A stretch of 12,121 nucleotides of DNA, from assembly GCF_000272405.2 (NCBI RefSeq), contig NZ_AJZM02000289.1, forward strand, positions 1 to 12,121, read 5' to 3'. Position 1 is the stretch's first letter, and the number at the start of each line of letters is the position of its first letter. This stretch comes from Vibrio tasmaniensis 1F-187. Its GTDB lineage: Bacteria > Pseudomonadota > Gammaproteobacteria > Enterobacterales > Vibrionaceae. Shown here one piece after another: positions 1 through 5,888 of the stretch. The notes under the pieces are model-generated. The model worked only from the letters and a program-made list of their open reading frames with translations, ran no database searches and was not told where the DNA came from. A program made the position numbers and the translations under genes.

Positions 1-66
1 GGACGAATTATGACTACTTCAAAGCGGAAGATTACTCGTTGGTTAAACATCGGTGTTTGGCGTTAA
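1..66 (+). CDS. Possible 3' end of a gene entering from the left (partial)
   Basis: Reading from base 1 gives 21 codons (…MTTSKRKITRWLNIGVWR) ending in TAA at 64-66, just before the A-tract of a hairpin terminator. That is where the end of a plus-strand gene converging on the flavoenzyme would be expected. The product is not recognisable. A second plus frame, starting at base 3, is open to TGA at 111-113 and has codon use that looks at least as natural, but it would run through the terminator hairpin. The choice of frame, and even the existence of a gene, is uncertain. Confidence 0.22.
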   Translation, partial: GRIMTTSKRKITRWLNIGVWR

Positions 67-144: not shown

Positions 145-1467
145 TTATTTAGCGACGTTACCTGCCACGTTTAGCGCATCCCATGTACGTGAAAAAGGCG
201 GGGCATAACAGAAATCCATGTAGCCTAGTTGTTGAGTAGTCATCTTGGCTGTGATCGCTACGGCCAGTGCATTGATGCGGCCAACGGCTCCTTTCTTACC
301 TACGATTTCACCACCTAAAAGGACCTTAGTTTCTGGGTGATAAACCAACTTCACCTTGATGTCTTCCTGGCCAGGGTAGTAATCGGTTTGGTTCTTATCT
401 GAAATGGTCGATACTTTCACATCCAAGTTATGTTCTTTCGCTAGAAGTTCATTTACGCCAGTACACGCCAGCTCGTAATCGAGTACTTTCAAACAAGACG
501 ACCCCAAGAAGCCCGACATGTAGGTATCTTTACCTGCTAGCTTGTCTGCCATCATACGCGCTTGCTTATTGGCTGTGGTTGCTAGAGCAACATAAACAGG
601 TTTGCCTAGTGCCATATGATGGACAACGGCACAGTCACCGACTGCGTGGATGTAAGCATCTACAGTAGCACCATATTCATTTACCAACAGAGCGCCGTTT
701 GCAGCTTTTGGCAGTTCGAATGCTTCCGTGTTTGGTTTGAAACCGAGTGACAGGATCACGACATCGGCTTCTACGTTGCCATTATCGGTTTCTACTATGT
801 AACCACCTTGTTCCGCATCGCGAATTGCAGACACGCTGCACCCTGTTTTAAGGTCTGCACCTGATTCACGAATCGCACCTTCGACTACTTCAATGATTTC
901 TGGGCTGAACTGACGGCTCATGATGTGTTGTTCACGTTCGATGATCGTCACGTGTTTGTCTAAGCCGTGCGCTGCATCGAATACTTCCAGGCCGATAAAA
1001 CCAGCCCCAATAACACACACACGTTGCTTGTTAACATCCTTTAGCGCTTCTTTAACCGCCAAGCCGTCTTCCATGCTTGTTAGTGTGTATACGTGTTCTG
1101 GATTGAATTCACCTAATGGTGGAACGATTGGTCGCGCACCTGTTGCAATGACCAACATATCGTAATCGATGACGCTTTCTTCATTTTGGTGACGTACCGT
1201 AATTTGCTTTTCAGTGCGGTCGAATGACACCATTTCTGTTTCTACACGTACATCTAAGCCTGATTTTATGGCTTGATCTGGTGTACGGGAGATCATTCGC
1301 TCGGTGTCATCAAACATGCCGCCTGCAAAGTAAGGTAAGCCACAGGCTCCGAAAGAGATGTAGCTACGCTTATCTAAAACGATGACTTCGTCTGATGGTT
1401 GATTACGTTTGTATTTTGCTGCGAAACTCATACCCGCGGCGCTACCGCCTATAACAACAACTTTCAT
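145..1467 (-). CDS. CoA-disulfide reductase-like FAD/NAD(P)H-dependent oxidoreductase
   Basis: 440-residue single-cysteine flavoprotein disulfide reductase. Family members reduce CoA disulfide, per- or polysulfides, or oxygen with NAD(P)H. Visible features are the N-terminal FAD-binding VVVIGGSAAG (residues 3-11), the redox Cys42 in SFGACGLPY, the second nucleotide fold VIGAGFIGLE (152-161), the FAD-contacting AVGDCA (275-280), and a C-terminal dimerisation domain from about 325. Tyr364 (YYPG) and Tyr421 (YAPPFSR) match the two tyrosines characteristic of CoA-disulfide reductases. Glu177 at the end of the second nucleotide-fold strand suggests NADH rather than NADPH (inference). No C-terminal rhodanese domain is present, unlike the longer persulfide-reductase (Npsr) relatives. 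The ATG has an AGG nearby. It is last in the minus-strand series, 77 bases after tcyP and separated from it by a hairpin, so it may be expressed at a different level. NADH oxidase (Nox) is the main alternative name. Confidence 0.88.
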   Translation of the reverse strand: MKVVVIGGSAAGMSFAAKYKRNQPSDEVIVLDKRSYISFGACGLPYFAGGMFDDTERMISRTPDQAIKSGLDVRVETEMVSFDRTEKQITVRHQNEESVIDYDMLVIATGARPIVPPLGEFNPEHVYTLTSMEDGLAVKEALKDVNKQRVCVIGAGFIGLEVFDAAHGLDKHVTIIEREQHIMSRQFSPEIIEVVEGAIRESGADLKTGCSVSAIRDAEQGGYIVETDNGNVEADVVILSLGFKPNTEAFELPKAANGALLVNEYGATVDAYIHAVGDCAVVHHMALGKPVYVALATTANKQARMMADKLAGKDTYMSGFLGSSCLKVLDYELACTGVNELLAKEHNLDVKVSTISDKNQTDYYPGQEDIKVKLVYHPETKVLLGGEIVGKKGAVGRINALAVAITAKMTTQQLGYMDFCYAPPFSRTWDALNVAGNVAK

Positions 1468-1544: not shown

Positions 1545-2951
1545 TTATACTGCTGCTTCTTTTGATACTGTCGCTGTAACGTCAGCGTCGTATTGTTCAG
1601 TATCCAATGAGCCATTCTTCTTCGCTGTAAGAACGCCTGACAACATAGAGCCTGAGATGTTCAGCGCTGTACGAGCCATGTCAATTAGTGCTTCAATAGA
1701 CACTAAAATCGCGACTACTGTGATGTCTAGACCCATGATGGTGAGTACCGCTACTGCTGCGAACGTTGCACCGCCACCAACACCTGCGATACCGAATGAA
1801 GCAATCGCGATAACAGCTATCAGTTGTAGGATAAAGCTCAAGTCTACAGGCATGCCCATGACCTGTGCCGCCATGATTGCTAGCATTGCTGGGTAGATAC
1901 CGGCACAACCGTTTTGACCGATACTAGTACCGAATGTCGCTGACATGTTTGCTGTTTCTTCGTCTACACCTAGGCGCTGAGTTTGTGTTTCAACGTTTAG
2001 TGGGATAGCTGCCATGCTTGAACGAGACCCGAAACCGAACACGAGTACTGGCCAGATTTTCTTCATGAACTTGGCAGGAGAAAGGCCGAACATTGACACC
2101 ATCACGAAGTGGATGCCGAACATAACGCCAATTGCTACGTAGCTTGCTAGAAGGAAGCGGCCCATCTCTGCAAGTGCGAACAGGTCGTTTGTCATCATGA
2201 ACGTGGTCATCAGAGCGAATACACCGTAAGGCGTTAGCTTCAGGATTTCACGAACCATTGAAAGCACTACTTCTTTTGCAGAGTTGATGAAATCAACGAA
2301 GTTTTGCACTTTCTCAGGCTTACGGTTTTTCACTTGAAGGATGCAGTAACCAAGGAACATACCGAACAGTACAGTTGATAGCGTAGAAGTACGTTGAGAG
2401 CCCGTTAGCATGTCGAAGATGTTGGTTGGAATGATAGACAGAGCCATACCAGACAGACCGCTGCTCGCCATCGCATCTTGTGTTGCGACCAGTGAATCAC
2501 CGCGAGCTTCAATCGCACTGTTTGTGCCGATTGTGCTTACTAGCGCGTTCGCATCGATACCAAATAGGTAAATACTTGCGATACCAACGGCCGCTGAGAT
2601 AGCACAAGTGAAAAGTAGAATACCGATGATTTTTGGTGCGATTCGAGATAGCGCACCGCCGCCTTCAACGTTCATGATCGAAGAGATCATCGCCACAAAC
2701 ACAAGTGGGATAACGATCATTTGTAGAAGTTTGATGTAGCCTTTACCGAACACCGAAATCAGTTCAGCAAAGCCAGATGTCGCAACGTTGCCGACACCGA
2801 AAACAAGTTGAATTGCGCCACCGAACAGTAAGCCAGCAGCAAGCGCACTCAGTACGCGGAAGTTAAAACTTTTCTTTTGCTTTTTGAAGTTCGACAGCAG
2901 TGCGTAGAACCCAAAGAACAGTATGCTTAATCCAATAAATGAAACGCTCAT
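1545..2951 (-). CDS. tcyP: L-cystine symporter, TcyP type (dicarboxylate/amino acid:cation symporter family)
   Basis: 468-residue inner-membrane transporter, close in length to E. coli TcyP/YdjN (about 463 residues). The aligned motifs recalled from that protein are all present: GNGYVQLLQMIVMPLVF-like at residues 69-85, LKLTPYGVFALMT (237-249), SRSSMAAIPLNVETQT (309-324, first re-entrant hairpin), IGQNGCAGIYPAMLA (344-358, unwound substrate/sodium-binding helix), GVGGGATFAA (390-399, second hairpin) and IDMARTALNISGSM (423-436). These are the signature of the cystine-specific branch rather than glutamate (GltP) or C4-dicarboxylate (DctA) carriers. A strong AGGAG sits six bases before the ATG. 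It lies 37 bases downstream of ridA on the same strand, so co-transcription is likely. The last 30 residues are polar and cytoplasmic. Confidence 0.9.
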   Translation of the reverse strand: MSVSFIGLSILFFGFYALLSNFKKQKKSFNFRVLSALAAGLLFGGAIQLVFGVGNVATSGFAELISVFGKGYIKLLQMIVIPLVFVAMISSIMNVEGGGALSRIAPKIIGILLFTCAISAAVGIASIYLFGIDANALVSTIGTNSAIEARGDSLVATQDAMASSGLSGMALSIIPTNIFDMLTGSQRTSTLSTVLFGMFLGYCILQVKNRKPEKVQNFVDFINSAKEVVLSMVREILKLTPYGVFALMTTFMMTNDLFALAEMGRFLLASYVAIGVMFGIHFVMVSMFGLSPAKFMKKIWPVLVFGFGSRSSMAAIPLNVETQTQRLGVDEETANMSATFGTSIGQNGCAGIYPAMLAIMAAQVMGMPVDLSFILQLIAVIAIASFGIAGVGGGATFAAVAVLTIMGLDITVVAILVSIEALIDMARTALNISGSMLSGVLTAKKNGSLDTEQYDADVTATVSKEAAV

Positions 2952-2988: not shown

Positions 2989-3372
2989 TTATTTTTTGTA
3001 TGCGATGGCTTCAATTTCAACCAGTGCGTCTTTTGGTAGTCGTGCTGCTTCAACACAAGAGCGAGCAGGTGCGTTCTCTGTACCAAACACCTCTGTATAC
3101 ACTTCGTTAAAGGCAACGAAGTTCTCCATGTCTGATAGGAAGCAGGTTGTCTTAAGCACTGTGTCCAGTCCCGCATTACTCGCTTCTAATACAGCTTTTA
3201 AGTTTTCCAGAGACTGACGAGCCTGCTCTTTGATGCCGCCCTCAACAAACTGCATGGTTTCTGGAACGAGAGGTAATTGACCTGATGTATAAACCATGTC
3301 GCCGTAAGACGTACCTTGTGAGTAAGGGCCGATAGCTGCAGGTGCTTGTTCAGTGGCAATGATCTGTTTCAC
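2989..3372 (-). CDS. ridA: RidA family reactive intermediate (enamine/imine) deaminase
   Basis: 127-residue RidA/YjgF/UK114 protein. Family members form trimers that hydrolyse reactive enamines/imines such as 2-aminoacrylate, a by-product of PLP-dependent serine and cysteine enzymes, to keto acids plus ammonia. The sequence shows IGPYSQGTSYGDMVYTSGQLP (residues 14-34), the NLKAVLEASNAGLDTVLKTT block (57-76) and the catalytic Arg104 in APARSCVEAARLP, followed by Glu119 in VEIEAIAYKK. Having this arginine places it with archetypal RidA rather than inactive Rid subfamilies. The start is GTG at 3370-3372, chosen because AGGAG lies seven bases upstream and the protein begins MKQIIATEQAP as in relatives. 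It lies 23 bases after the regulator and 37 before tcyP. It may be a paralogue of a housekeeping ridA elsewhere, dedicated to this operon. Confidence 0.92.
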   Translation of the reverse strand: MKQIIATEQAPAAIGPYSQGTSYGDMVYTSGQLPLVPETMQFVEGGIKEQARQSLENLKAVLEASNAGLDTVLKTTCFLSDMENFVAFNEVYTEVFGTENAPARSCVEAARLPKDALVEIEAIAYKK

Positions 3373-3395: not shown

Positions 3396-4061
3396 TTATT
3401 CTGATTTAAATTCACGGATAAACTTGTAAACCGCCTGTCGGCTGATCCCAAGTTGCTCTGATACTTGTGTAGTCGTCTCTTTTAGCTCAAATACGCCGTT
3501 ATCAAATAAGCAACGGATGATGGCTTTATTACGACCTTTGCAGGAAACCGACTCGTCTTGGTCAACCTCGTTAATGGCTGAACTCAATGCTTGCTGAATC
3601 ACATCATTTGCATTGTTACTGAAGGTCTCACTGACAATGGTTTGTGGCACATTGCACTGCGGCATCAGCGTCTTGACGATTTCTGGAAATGGGAAAGATA
3701 AGTTCATGTTGATACACAGCATACCAATCGGCTTTTGTTGTGGACCAGCCAGTACACAGGTGGTCGATTTAAGTAGGGAACCATCTGCTGAGTTGGTGAA
3801 ATAGCTTTTCGGAGAAACTTCGCCAGTTTTCTCGAATGTGCTCCACATGCGTAAACCTAAATCGGTGATTGGTGACCCAATTTCACGACCCGTATGATGA
3901 CCATTGACGATCTTCACGACTGAGTTTTCTAAGCTTTCAAATGAATGGATAACCACTTCGCAGTAAGGACCAATCAAATCGGCGATAGTGTCTGCTAAGC
4001 GGAAGTAATTACTTAAGCATTCTCTGTCTTCATCGGTGAATCGAACTTGTTTTACATTCAT
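3396..4061 (-). CDS. YheO/DauR-type PAS-helix-turn-helix transcriptional regulator
   Basis: 221 residues in two parts. The N-terminal YheO-like PAS domain (about 10-122) includes the family block NGHHTGREIGSPITDLGL (53-70) and a hydrophobic sensor core PIGMLCINMNL (111-121). The C-terminal helix-turn-helix (about 175-219) contains TTTQVSEQLGISRQAVYKFI. Relatives include E. coli YheO and the Pseudomonas D-arginine regulator DauR, which bind small ligands and control amino-acid genes. Here the target is probably its own operon with ridA and tcyP, because repeated palindromes lie directly upstream (separate entries). No Shine-Dalgarno sequence is seen before the ATG (…CCGAAATCATG), so translation may be weak. 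The next possible operator overlaps this leader, consistent with autoregulation. Ligand unknown; cyst(e)ine or a related amino acid is an inference from the neighbours. Confidence 0.85.
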   Translation of the reverse strand: MNVKQVRFTDEDRECLSNYFRLADTIADLIGPYCEVVIHSFESLENSVVKIVNGHHTGREIGSPITDLGLRMWSTFEKTGEVSPKSYFTNSADGSLLKSTTCVLAGPQQKPIGMLCINMNLSFPFPEIVKTLMPQCNVPQTIVSETFSNNANDVIQQALSSAINEVDQDESVSCKGRNKAIIRCLFDNGVFELKETTTQVSEQLGISRQAVYKFIREFKSE

Positions 4062-4067
4062 GATTTC

Positions 4068-4084
4068 GGTTTACATTTTTGAAC
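4068..4084. promoter_or_regulatory. Candidate operator copy 1, overlapping the regulator's leader
   Basis: GGTTTACATTTTTGAAC begins seven bases upstream of the regulator ATG. It shares the 11-base stretch CATTTTTGAAC exactly with the copy at 4287-4303 and the left half GGTTTACAT with 4265-4273. Bound protein here would sit just downstream of the proposed transcription start and would repress. Confidence 0.5.
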
Positions 4085-4095
4085 TCAATGACTGA

Positions 4096-4124
4096 AATCT
4101 ACTCCTTTGGTGGTACTCCCACAA
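4096..4124 (-). promoter_or_regulatory. Candidate sigma-70 promoter for the regulator-ridA-tcyP operon
   Basis: On the minus strand TTGTGG (complement of 4119-4124) and TAGATT (complement of 4096-4101) are separated by 17 bases. The -35 matches consensus at three of six positions and the -10 at four of six. Transcription would start near 4089, about 28 bases before the ATG. The promoter lies between two of the palindromes, at 4068-4084 and 4130-4147. Weak consensus, so position is tentative. Confidence 0.35.
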
Positions 4125-4129
4125 GATGC

Positions 4130-4147
4130 GGTAAACTTCTGTAAACC
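4130..4147. promoter_or_regulatory. Candidate operator copy 2, adjacent to the promoter -35
   Basis: GGTAAACTTCTGTAAACC is an 18-base imperfect palindrome. Its complement reads GGTTTACAGAAGTTTACC, so GGTTTACA is shared with the copies at 4068 and 4265. It ends six bases upstream of the proposed -35. A perfect short palindrome, TGAACGTTCA, follows at 4153-4162 and carries the GAAC half-motif of the other copies. Confidence 0.5.
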
Positions 4148-4239
4148 TGAAGTGAACGTTCAAAACATCAACAAATCGTAAGTTTTAGACCTATATCACG
4201 AGCGGAATTTGAACAAGATCACCAAAGGTAGCCAAATGA

Positions 4240-4257
4240 GGTTTAATTTCTTAAACC
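4240..4257. promoter_or_regulatory. Candidate operator copy 3, the most perfect palindrome
   Basis: GGTTTAATTTCTTAAACC has perfect 7-base arms (GGTTTAA/TTAAACC) around TTTC. It defines the likely consensus of the cluster: GGTTTA, six bases, TAAACC. It lies about 180 bases upstream of the regulator start codon. Confidence 0.55.
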
Positions 4258-4264
4258 GCATCAA

Positions 4265-4283
4265 GGTTTACATATTTAAAACC
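4265..4283. promoter_or_regulatory. Candidate operator copy 4
   Basis: GGTTTACATATTTAAAACC has GGTTT/AAACC arms, one base longer overall than copy 3. The left nine bases equal those of copy 1. It begins seven bases after copy 3 ends. Confidence 0.45.
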
Positions 4284-4286
4284 AAA

Positions 4287-4303
4287 GGTTGCATTTTTGA
4301 ACC
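4287..4303. promoter_or_regulatory. Candidate operator copy 5
   Basis: GGTTGCATTTTTGAACC has GGTT/AACC arms and a core nearly identical to copy 1. It begins three bases after copy 4. The start-to-start distances of copies 3, 4 and 5 are 25 and 22 bases, about two helical turns each, which would place bound dimers on nearly the same face of the DNA. Confidence 0.45.
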
Positions 4304-4360
4304 CTTTGATGATCTAGGACAAGTTATAAGGAAAGGCAAAAAATTGAATTAATTGGTATT

Positions 4361-4387
4361 GTAAATGCATGGCAATCAAGCATTTAC
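4361..4387. repeat. Perfect 8-bp inverted repeat in the regulator-MATE intergenic region
   Basis: GTAAATGC (4361-4368) and GCATTTAC (4380-4387) flank an 11-base spacer. There is no T-run, so it is not a terminator. It could be an operator or a hairpin. Around it, 4304-4500 has no recognised gene. A plus-strand frame is open from 4313 to a TAA at 4451-4453, but it has no ATG. Confidence 0.5.
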
Positions 4388-4503
4388 CTTGCGAATGTGG
4401 TGGTGAGTAAAGATAGGTGGTTAATTGAAAATGAGGTTGTATTAGAGAGTTAAATTCACAAAAAACAGCTTTTTAATAGGATGCAAGCTAGGATTTAGAT
4501 CCT

Positions 4504-4529
4504 AAAAAAGCAGCTGAAGTTGCTGCTTT
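4504..4529 (-). terminator. Rho-independent terminator of the MATE transporter gene
   Basis: Stem AAAGCAGC/GCTGCTTT (4507-4514 with 4522-4529) and a 7-base loop. On the minus strand the stem runs into a T6 tract (complement of 4504-4509). It lies about 20 bases past the MATE stop. A further inverted repeat, TAGGAT/ATCCTA (4489-4504), follows immediately. Confidence 0.88.
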
Positions 4530-4550
4530 ATTTTGGAGTGTTCTGTTTGA

Positions 4551-5888
4551 TTATTCGCTTGGCAGTTTAAGCTCGACTTGTTTTAGCGCGCGCTGATACA
4601 TAAACCATGCACAGGTGCCGGCAAGCACATTACCTGTCATTGCGCCCCAGAATAGGCCTTCAATACCCGCAAGCTGAGAGCCAACCCACAAGCTAGGTAA
4701 GAAGAAGGCGAACAGGCGCAGCGCTGAAATCGTCAAGGCGGTATAGGACTTGCCTAATGCGTTAGAGACGGAAACCATCAGCATACAGATTCCTAATGGC
4801 CCTAAGCTAATAGGTACGATCAGTAGGTGATAGTTTAAAATCGTCGAGACTTCGCTTTCACTGGTCATTAGGTTTGCTAGTCCGCCAGAGAATAACCAAG
4901 TCACTAGTGCGATCACCAACTGGAAACCCAATACAAACATCACCGCAATCTTAACGAGCTTACGTATGTTTTCGAGATTGTTCTCTCCCAACATGCGGCC
5001 AATCATCGGAGGCATCGACATCGTTAGTGCTAGCACAGCGACAATCGAGAAGAATTCAAAACGTGAACCCAATGCCCAAGCTGCAACGGCAGCTGTGCCA
5101 TAGCCAGCAAGCAGCTTAGTGGCGAACATGGATGAAACAGGAGGCAGCAGCTGACTGATCATCGCAGGCCCCATGATGTTACCAATGGAGCGAACACTCT
5201 TGCTGATGTCGAGGTCGTGCCAGTCGAAGGTCATCCAATGCTTCTTGGTGACCTTTGGTGCAACGATAAATATACCCGCACCGAACGCCAAGATGGTCGC
5301 AATGGCGGCTCCATTGATGCCCATGTCGAGCGTAAAGATGAAAATCGGGTCCAATATTAAGTTGATGATACTGGTCGCGATCATCATTGAACCGGGCAGC
5401 ATGGTATTACCATTGGCACGACACACACTGTAGAAAAAGTAGAGCAGTGCACCTGTCCAAGAGCTGGCTAGCCAATAGATCCAATAAGAATCAATGATCG
5501 GTAATACCGTCGGTGGCGCATCCAACAATTGTAAAATTGGCCCTCGCAGCAGATAGATGATGACGGAGAAAAACGCGACACTCACGCTGCCCATCGCAAT
5601 CACTAATCCACCAAGCTGCTTAGCGTAGCGCGTTTCATTCGCGCCAATGGCTCTCGCGATTACCGCGGTTGTCGCGATACCTAACCCGACCTGAATACCG
5701 ATGATGATCATCTGTATTGGAAGCGTGAAACCTTGAACAGCGAGCGGCAGTACGCCCAGTTGGCCAATAAAAGCACTGTCGACAAGCTGGAAGCTCATTA
5801 GGGAAAGTACCCCAAATAGCATTGGCCATGTCATTGTATAGAGTTGTCGGCCAAGAGAAGGCGAGGGAGTTGCGGTAGTAGAATTCAT
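4551..5888 (-). CDS. MATE family multidrug/cation antiporter
   Basis: 445-residue integral membrane protein with the MATE layout: about 12 hydrophobic helices in two homologous halves of six. Both halves carry the family's short loop after the third helix: ARAIGANE (about residues 78-85) in the first and IGRMLGENN (about 295-303) in the second. Asp37 in LVDSAFIGQLG of the first helix matches the ion-coupling aspartate of the DinF/NorM-type N-lobe. MATE exporters use sodium or proton gradients to expel cationic drugs, dyes or metabolites; the substrate cannot be read from sequence. The ATG is preceded by a modest AAGAG. It is a single-gene unit with its own terminator, and the ppsA terminator lies upstream. 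No neighbouring regulator is evident on its side. Confidence 0.88.
   Translation of the reverse strand: MNSTTATPSPSLGRQLYTMTWPMLFGVLSLMSFQLVDSAFIGQLGVLPLAVQGFTLPIQMIIIGIQVGLGIATTAVIARAIGANETRYAKQLGGLVIAMGSVSVAFFSVIIYLLRGPILQLLDAPPTVLPIIDSYWIYWLASSWTGALLYFFYSVCRANGNTMLPGSMMIATSIINLILDPIFIFTLDMGINGAAIATILAFGAGIFIVAPKVTKKHWMTFDWHDLDISKSVRSIGNIMGPAMISQLLPPVSSMFATKLLAGYGTAAVAAWALGSRFEFFSIVAVLALTMSMPPMIGRMLGENNLENIRKLVKIAVMFVLGFQLVIALVTWLFSGGLANLMTSESEVSTILNYHLLIVPISLGPLGICMLMVSVSNALGKSYTALTISALRLFAFFLPSLWVGSQLAGIEGLFWGAMTGNVLAGTCAWFMYQRALKQVELKLPSE

Follow-up and report, generated by a model that had tools for sequence, protein, structure and literature searches.

Four conserved palindromes at fixed spacing upstream of a PAS_6/HTH_22 regulator gene in Vibrio tasmaniensis: a probable operator array with relatives across a regulator clade

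The window analysed here is the whole 12,121 nucleotides of contig NZ_AJZM02000289.1 from Vibrio tasmaniensis 1F-187 (assembly GCF_000272405.2). On its minus strand lies a YheO-like regulator gene (3396..4061), the product of which carries a PAS_6 domain (119.2 bits, cut-off 27) and an HTH_22 domain (46.1 bits, cut-off 29.6), both over the curated cut-offs. Next on that strand, 23 bp 3', comes a gene for a ridA-like reactive-intermediate deaminase (2989..3372; TIGR00004, 168.8 bits, cut-off 106.25), then an SDF-family transporter gene (1545..2951) and a gene for a CoA-disulfide-reductase-like flavoprotein (145..1467; NF007123, 677.9 bits, cut-off 458), the latter falling below the cut-off of TIGR03385 (411 vs 578.8). 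No NCBIfam model matched the transporter over its cut-off; its relatives are named L-cystine transporter/TcyP in some sources and only cation:dicarboxylate symporter in others, and the gene is referred to as tcyP below. A MATE transporter gene lies 5' of the regulator on the same strand.

One genome per species was scanned for relatives of the regulator, which gave 96 loci, and the best 80 of the 96 were kept. Clade A comprises 32 loci (L016-L046 and L088) among these 80. ridA adjoins the regulator in all 32, and the gene order regulator-ridA-tcyP-CoADR was found in 31; L036 ends within the transporter gene. The MATE gene was matched upstream in six of the 32 (L016, L017, L018, L021, L024 and L030), the nearest upstream open reading frames (ORFs, called mechanically) being of many kinds, 22 codirectional and nine divergent. 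The downstream genes of L042 match in broken pieces, the regulator match of L040 is split over two frames and that of G046 (L156) spans residues 36-221 only, its frame seemingly broken; the array sites described below are present in all three all the same.

The initial annotation described five related palindromes 5' of the regulator as a likely operator array, and the five strings, with start-to-start spacings of 25 and 22 bases among the distal three, could be read directly in the window. Four of them, all given on the minus strand, are termed operators O1 to O4 here. O1, AGTTCAAAAATGTAAACC (4068..4085; -24 to -7 from the ATG), has a motif score of 20.4, a conservation of 0.91 and two mismatches to the 18-bp pattern GGTTTA-N6-TAAACC. 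O2, GGTTTACAGAAGTTTACC (4130..4147; -86 to -69), scores 17.6 with a conservation of 0.88 and also two mismatches. The distal pair consists of O3, GGTTTAAGAAATTAAACC (4240..4257; -196 to -179; score 19.7, conservation 0.82), which matches the pattern exactly, and O4, GTTTTAAATATGTAAACC (4265..4282; -221 to -204; score 19.6, conservation 0.84), which has one mismatch.

The sites are unremarkable when considered one by one. At up to three mismatches the window holds 17 matches to the motif, compared with 4.76 +/- 2.08 in shuffles, and at up to two mismatches the whole genome holds 306 places, compared with 309 for a reversed control, so that the bare motif is at background. At this genome-wide rate ∼0.014 places would be expected per 250 bp, compared with four in the region upstream of the regulator, a comparison that is partly circular because the motif was derived from these very sites. 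When strict 18-bp palindromes were counted in 4062-4311 without reference to the motif, one was found, with a shuffle mean of 0.66 and 965 of 2000 shuffles as high, which is not significant. Because the bare motif is at background and the palindrome count is not significant, the window alone is no proof; the decisive support comes from conservation and from co-occurrence with the regulator.

Conservation was assessed in an alignment of the window with the 32 clade A loci (33 rows). The flank value was taken between -245 and -5, leaving aside the promoter hexamers and the 16-base block at a presumed activator site. The mean conservation of the four sites was 0.86 vs 0.63 for the flanks (0.84 vs 0.61 with 25 less redundant rows), the four sites were the best-conserved blocks, and no random set of four blocks, out of 2000 drawn with either 33 or 25 rows, was as well conserved. 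The motif is thus conserved in orthologous upstream regions, and the positions of the sites are kept although the upstream gene varies. The palindromic motif model for clade A is RGTTTAMNNNNKTAAACY. At a score of at least 10 this model, trained on the rows that it scored, found four sites in 24 of the 33 rows, three in seven and two in two, a mean of 3.67 per sequence vs 0.035 in shuffles. Any site at all was found in two of 714 other 350-bp segments of the clade A loci. Single sites are absent from divergent rows (O2 from L044-L046 and L152, O3 from L037, L039 and L043, O4 from L042), a pattern of loss that is consistent with two modules, proximal and distal.

The fifth palindrome (4287..4303, assigned to neither strand) did not behave in this way and is not supported as an operator. 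It has 17 bp and, at up to three mismatches, no fit to the 18-bp frame, its conservation of 0.63 equals that of the flanks in the 33-row alignment (0.60 with the 25 less redundant rows), and a motif-model match at this place was found only in the window sequence (score 9.2) and in none of the other 32 rows. The array as first proposed is therefore retained for the sites at 4068, 4130, 4240 and 4265 and dropped for the site at 4287. A second conserved stretch, roughly AACTTGTNCTAGATCATNAAA on the minus strand, was seen by eye 5' of the array (window ∼4305-4326) in rows of the splendidus-harveyi group.

A candidate promoter between two of the palindromes had also been proposed, and O1 and O2 do bracket a conserved promoter-like hexamer pair on the minus strand. 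It consists of a -35-like hexamer, TTGTGG (4119..4124), which has three of the six consensus letters in the window and a conserved position in the alignment, and a -10-like hexamer, TAGATT (4096..4101), at a spacer of 17. The pattern TTGnnn-16..17-nAnnnT occurs between O2 and O1 in 32 of 32 rows, in 29 with a 17-bp spacer, but a general consensus promoter scan did not report a hexamer pair there. The promoter call is based mainly on the fixed place in the alignment, because the pattern is loose, was counted without a shuffle control and was missed by the scan. From the predicted transcription start at ∼4089, O1 lies just 3', O2 is centred ∼50 bp upstream and directly 5' of the -35-like hexamer, and the distal pair lies 160-185 bp upstream.

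The distance from O3 to O4 is 25 bp in all 28 rows counted (of 32). The proximal pair is separated by 62, 63 or 65 bp (22, five and one rows), and the gap between the distal and proximal groups is 110 bp in 16 rows, 109 in nine and 118 in L041. The spacings (25, 110 and 62 bp) do not all correspond to whole helical turns and therefore give no special support for looping. Between the distal and proximal operators lies a block, GTGATCTTGTTCAA (4209..4222, minus strand), which we take to resemble CRP/FNR sites. In the form GTGATCnnGTTCAA (GTGAYCnnGYTCRW) it is kept in 21 of the 32 clade A rows; a perfect match to the CRP/FNR consensus was found nowhere in clade A.

To follow the array through the genus, the distal pair was sought as a pattern, at up to three mismatches, in 148 genomes, and the regulator was sought in the same genomes by protein search. 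The pattern was found at 34 places in 32 genomes, and its reversed control had matches in 14 of the 148. The clade A regulator was found in 32 genomes, which are the 32 best rows (68-100% identity), the one of lowest identity (G083, L152 in the tree) grouping with clade A there. In 30 of these 32 genomes with the ortholog the distal pair is situated directly 5' of the regulator, 169-288 bp before the matched start (the values of 236 and 288 come from rows with a late-starting protein match), and it was found in one of the 116 genomes without the ortholog (G067). The four stray places that do not adjoin the regulator are all at three mismatches. A random genome-wide frequency, which would have spoken against the initial proposal, is thus observed for the single site and not for the array. 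In G053 and G001 the ortholog is present and the distal pair, as searched, is absent; other array sites are retained in L151 (from G001) and in L038 and L039, the latter two also having 76-78% regulators.

At up to one mismatch the clade A motif occurs at 23 places in the genome (37 for the control), and no second target stands out. Three of the 23 belong to the array and 18 of the other 20 are inside ORFs, and the regulator therefore looks local. A lone RGTTTA-type site with one mismatch (G000:C344:14449-14466, L143) lies outside ORFs, ∼290 bp before a 111-aa ORF; it is a possible but unsupported second target.

Related arrays were found beyond clade A. Clade B consists of 48 other upstream regions (L071, with a short upstream region, was excluded) from Photobacterium, Enterovibrio, Shewanella, Pantoea, Endozoicomonas and kin, Psychromonas and Vibrio paralogues. 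Its motif model is AGTTAAC-N4-GTTAACT, compared with an RGTTTAC half-site in clade A, and sites recur near -21, -87, -140/-149, -202, -229, -274 and -302. Each row has 2-7 sites at a score of at least 10, with three or more in 47 of the 48; the mean is 5.17 per sequence vs 0.025 in shuffles, again for a model trained on the rows that it scored. When the models were crossed, each being run on the other clade, 1.94 and 2.31 sites per row were found vs 0.027 and 0.029. Other 350-bp segments of clade B loci had any site in 10 of 1032 cases. A clade B motif search begun from a neutral start settled on an offset repeat, which had lower information (12.5 vs 16.1) and was rejected.

In clade B the nearest upstream ORF, called mechanically, is divergent in 48 of 49 rows, and the regulator is mostly separated by the array from a divergently oriented M24-hydrolase-like gene. 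The array is also present in eight loci in which ridA was undetected nearby (L051, L052, L054, L059, L060, L067, L078 and L085). Since the array is kept without ridA and with a changed upstream gene, it tracks the regulator. FNR-like boxes, TTGATnnnnATCAA, were seen between the operators in L097, L068 and L052, with no mismatches in four of 52 clade B rows.

The 1F-187 genome itself has three PAS_6 genes. One paralogue (L097/L142) is a clade B regulator with its own AGTTAAC-type array, and ridA and a diaminopropionate ammonia-lyase gene (TIGR03528, 572.3 bits, cut-off 532.25) lie 3' of it. In L142 (4214-11155) these three genes share one strand, and the array lies between them and divergent genes for an M24-hydrolase-like protein, EamA-type transporters and an M20-type amidohydrolase. 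The third PAS_6 gene, a distant YheO-like one, has no such array upstream.

The type of half-site was compared with the regulator proteins, leaving out L036, L040 and L041, for which the assumed start gave no full-length protein. Position 5 of the half-site is mostly T where residue 209 is Q and A or C where it is H. The T fraction ranges from 0.30 to 1.00 in rows with Q209 and from 0 to 0.33 in rows with H (30 rows of clade A and 48 of clade B), the two ranges meeting only at L037 (Q, 0.30) and L064 (H, 0.33). This count is not wholly independent of the motif models because the sites were picked with both. Within the HTH, a clean split between the two groups is seen at the column of residue 209 and at no other; in the PAS domain, residues 73 and 115 divide them equally completely. 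A predicted structure (mean pLDDT 80.6, pTM 0.54) puts residue 209 second in helix 208-220, which is the second HTH helix and the predicted recognition helix, with Q209 at its start.

In a tree of 88 proteins all 32 Q rows fall on one side of a single branch (support 100/98), and the other side holds 56 rows, 52 with H and B-type sites and four with H and no sites. The sister of the Q group, L049 (Psychromonas), shares the four-gene operon but carries H and B-type sites; the tree thus places the changes of operator and helix on one branch, later than the formation of the operon. As this represents one evolutionary event, a causal link between residue 209 and half-site fits but cannot be proven. 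That the half-site type follows residue 209 through a single evolutionary change is thus suggestive only.

These data suggest that the four palindromes are probably dimer operators of the adjacent PAS_6/HTH_22 regulator, through which it would regulate its own gene together with ridA, tcyP and CoADR from one promoter, most likely by looping repression that a ligand relieves. The single promoter between O2 and O1 would drive all four genes. Ligand-free regulator would bind as dimers both at the promoter-flanking sites O1 and O2 and at the rigid distal pair, and contacts between the two groups would loop out ∼110 bp and hold transcription down. A metabolite sensed by PAS_6, perhaps tied to cystine/cysteine or 2-aminoacrylate chemistry, would release repression, and an activator of CRP/FNR type may work from the conserved block within the loop.

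A regulator that binds these sites and mainly activates the operon is somewhat unlikely. O2, ∼50 bp 5' of the start, would then serve activation, O1 would limit the level of the regulator itself and the distal pair would add to activation. O2 does abut a poor -35-like hexamer; however, O1, just 3' of the predicted start, is in a position of repression, and in the accessible part of a report on Campylobacter jejuni the mutant of a relative, Cj1387c, over-produces the adjacent L-PSP/RidA-family protein, which its authors read as repression (PMC4519771). It is improbable that something else binds the array, whether the paralogous regulator (L097/L142) or some global one. The CRP/FNR-like block lies in the same region, and the clade B model scores 15.3 on O1, so that cross-binding by the paralogue is conceivable. 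However, the bare motif is at background genome-wide, the distal pair adjoins this regulator and upstream of the paralogue lies a separate array of a different half-site type. We consider it equally improbable that the distal pair is a functionless leftover of an ancestral divergent promoter of the clade B kind. The nearly uniform divergence of upstream ORFs in clade B and their mixed orientation in clade A would fit such an origin, but O4 and O3 are far better conserved in clade A than the flanks and their 25-bp spacing is exact. Action of the repeats in RNA as a leader structure is very improbable, since O1 is within the predicted 5' leader but three of the four sites lie 5' of the predicted promoter and no Rfam match at E <= 0.1 was found in 3900-4600.

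Autoregulation by the adjacent regulator, the reading preferred here, is ordinary as a kind of system: a one-component regulator with an autoregulatory operator array. The finding is wider than that of the initial annotation, since it concerns a clade-level operator code with a paralogue-specific half-site. Tentatively, the fixed-geometry multi-operator array may be a property of the whole PAS_6/HTH_22-RidA clade in marine gammaproteobacteria, in which the array of the TcyP-operon paralogue was rewritten from the AGTTAAC type to the RGTTTAC type along with a change from H to Q at residue 209, possibly insulating the two paralogues in one cell. The code is testable. It predicts how the promoter is laid out and which residue is a candidate for specificity, and in Vibrio it would place a probable cystine transporter, RidA and a thiol-disulfide reductase under the control of a single switch. 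With two paralogues of different half-site in one genome, divergence of specificity can be tested directly.

As far as the open-licence literature shows, this is the first operator code for the clade; no defined operator for the PAS_6/HTH_22 family was found there, subscription journals being mostly outside its scope. Cj1387c (CfiR/HeuR) has the same domains and, like the regulator of the window, lies beside an L-PSP/RidA-family gene, a linkage also reported for its relatives (PMC4519771, accessible part). HeuR is the ortholog of strain 81-176 (PMC11187230, accessible part); purified, it bound the chuZA promoter in gel shifts, the site itself still being sought by the authors (PMC5111405, accessible part). 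In the accessible parts of these sources Cj1387c differs in its other reported targets (heme uptake and flagella) and in its undefined operator, and it is likened here by description. Work on Yersinia has also dealt with an operon that combines a PAS/HTH gene with Rid-family genes, the portion of text available containing no operator (PMC7221256). The distant YheO-like genes share the PAS_6 domain and the helix-turn-helix but differ in their upstream regions, 22 of 23 such loci (38-43% identity) having no site and one a single site. DauR of Pseudomonas aeruginosa presumably has the same domain type and controls its own catabolic operon, in a pathway that differs from that of the window operon. 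AraC, GalR and DeoR are looping repressors with operators around the promoter and remote operators; they belong to families unrelated to PAS_6/HTH_22, and looping is something that we infer for the Vibrio array, but the arrangement of promoter-flanking plus remote operators is the same as that found here.
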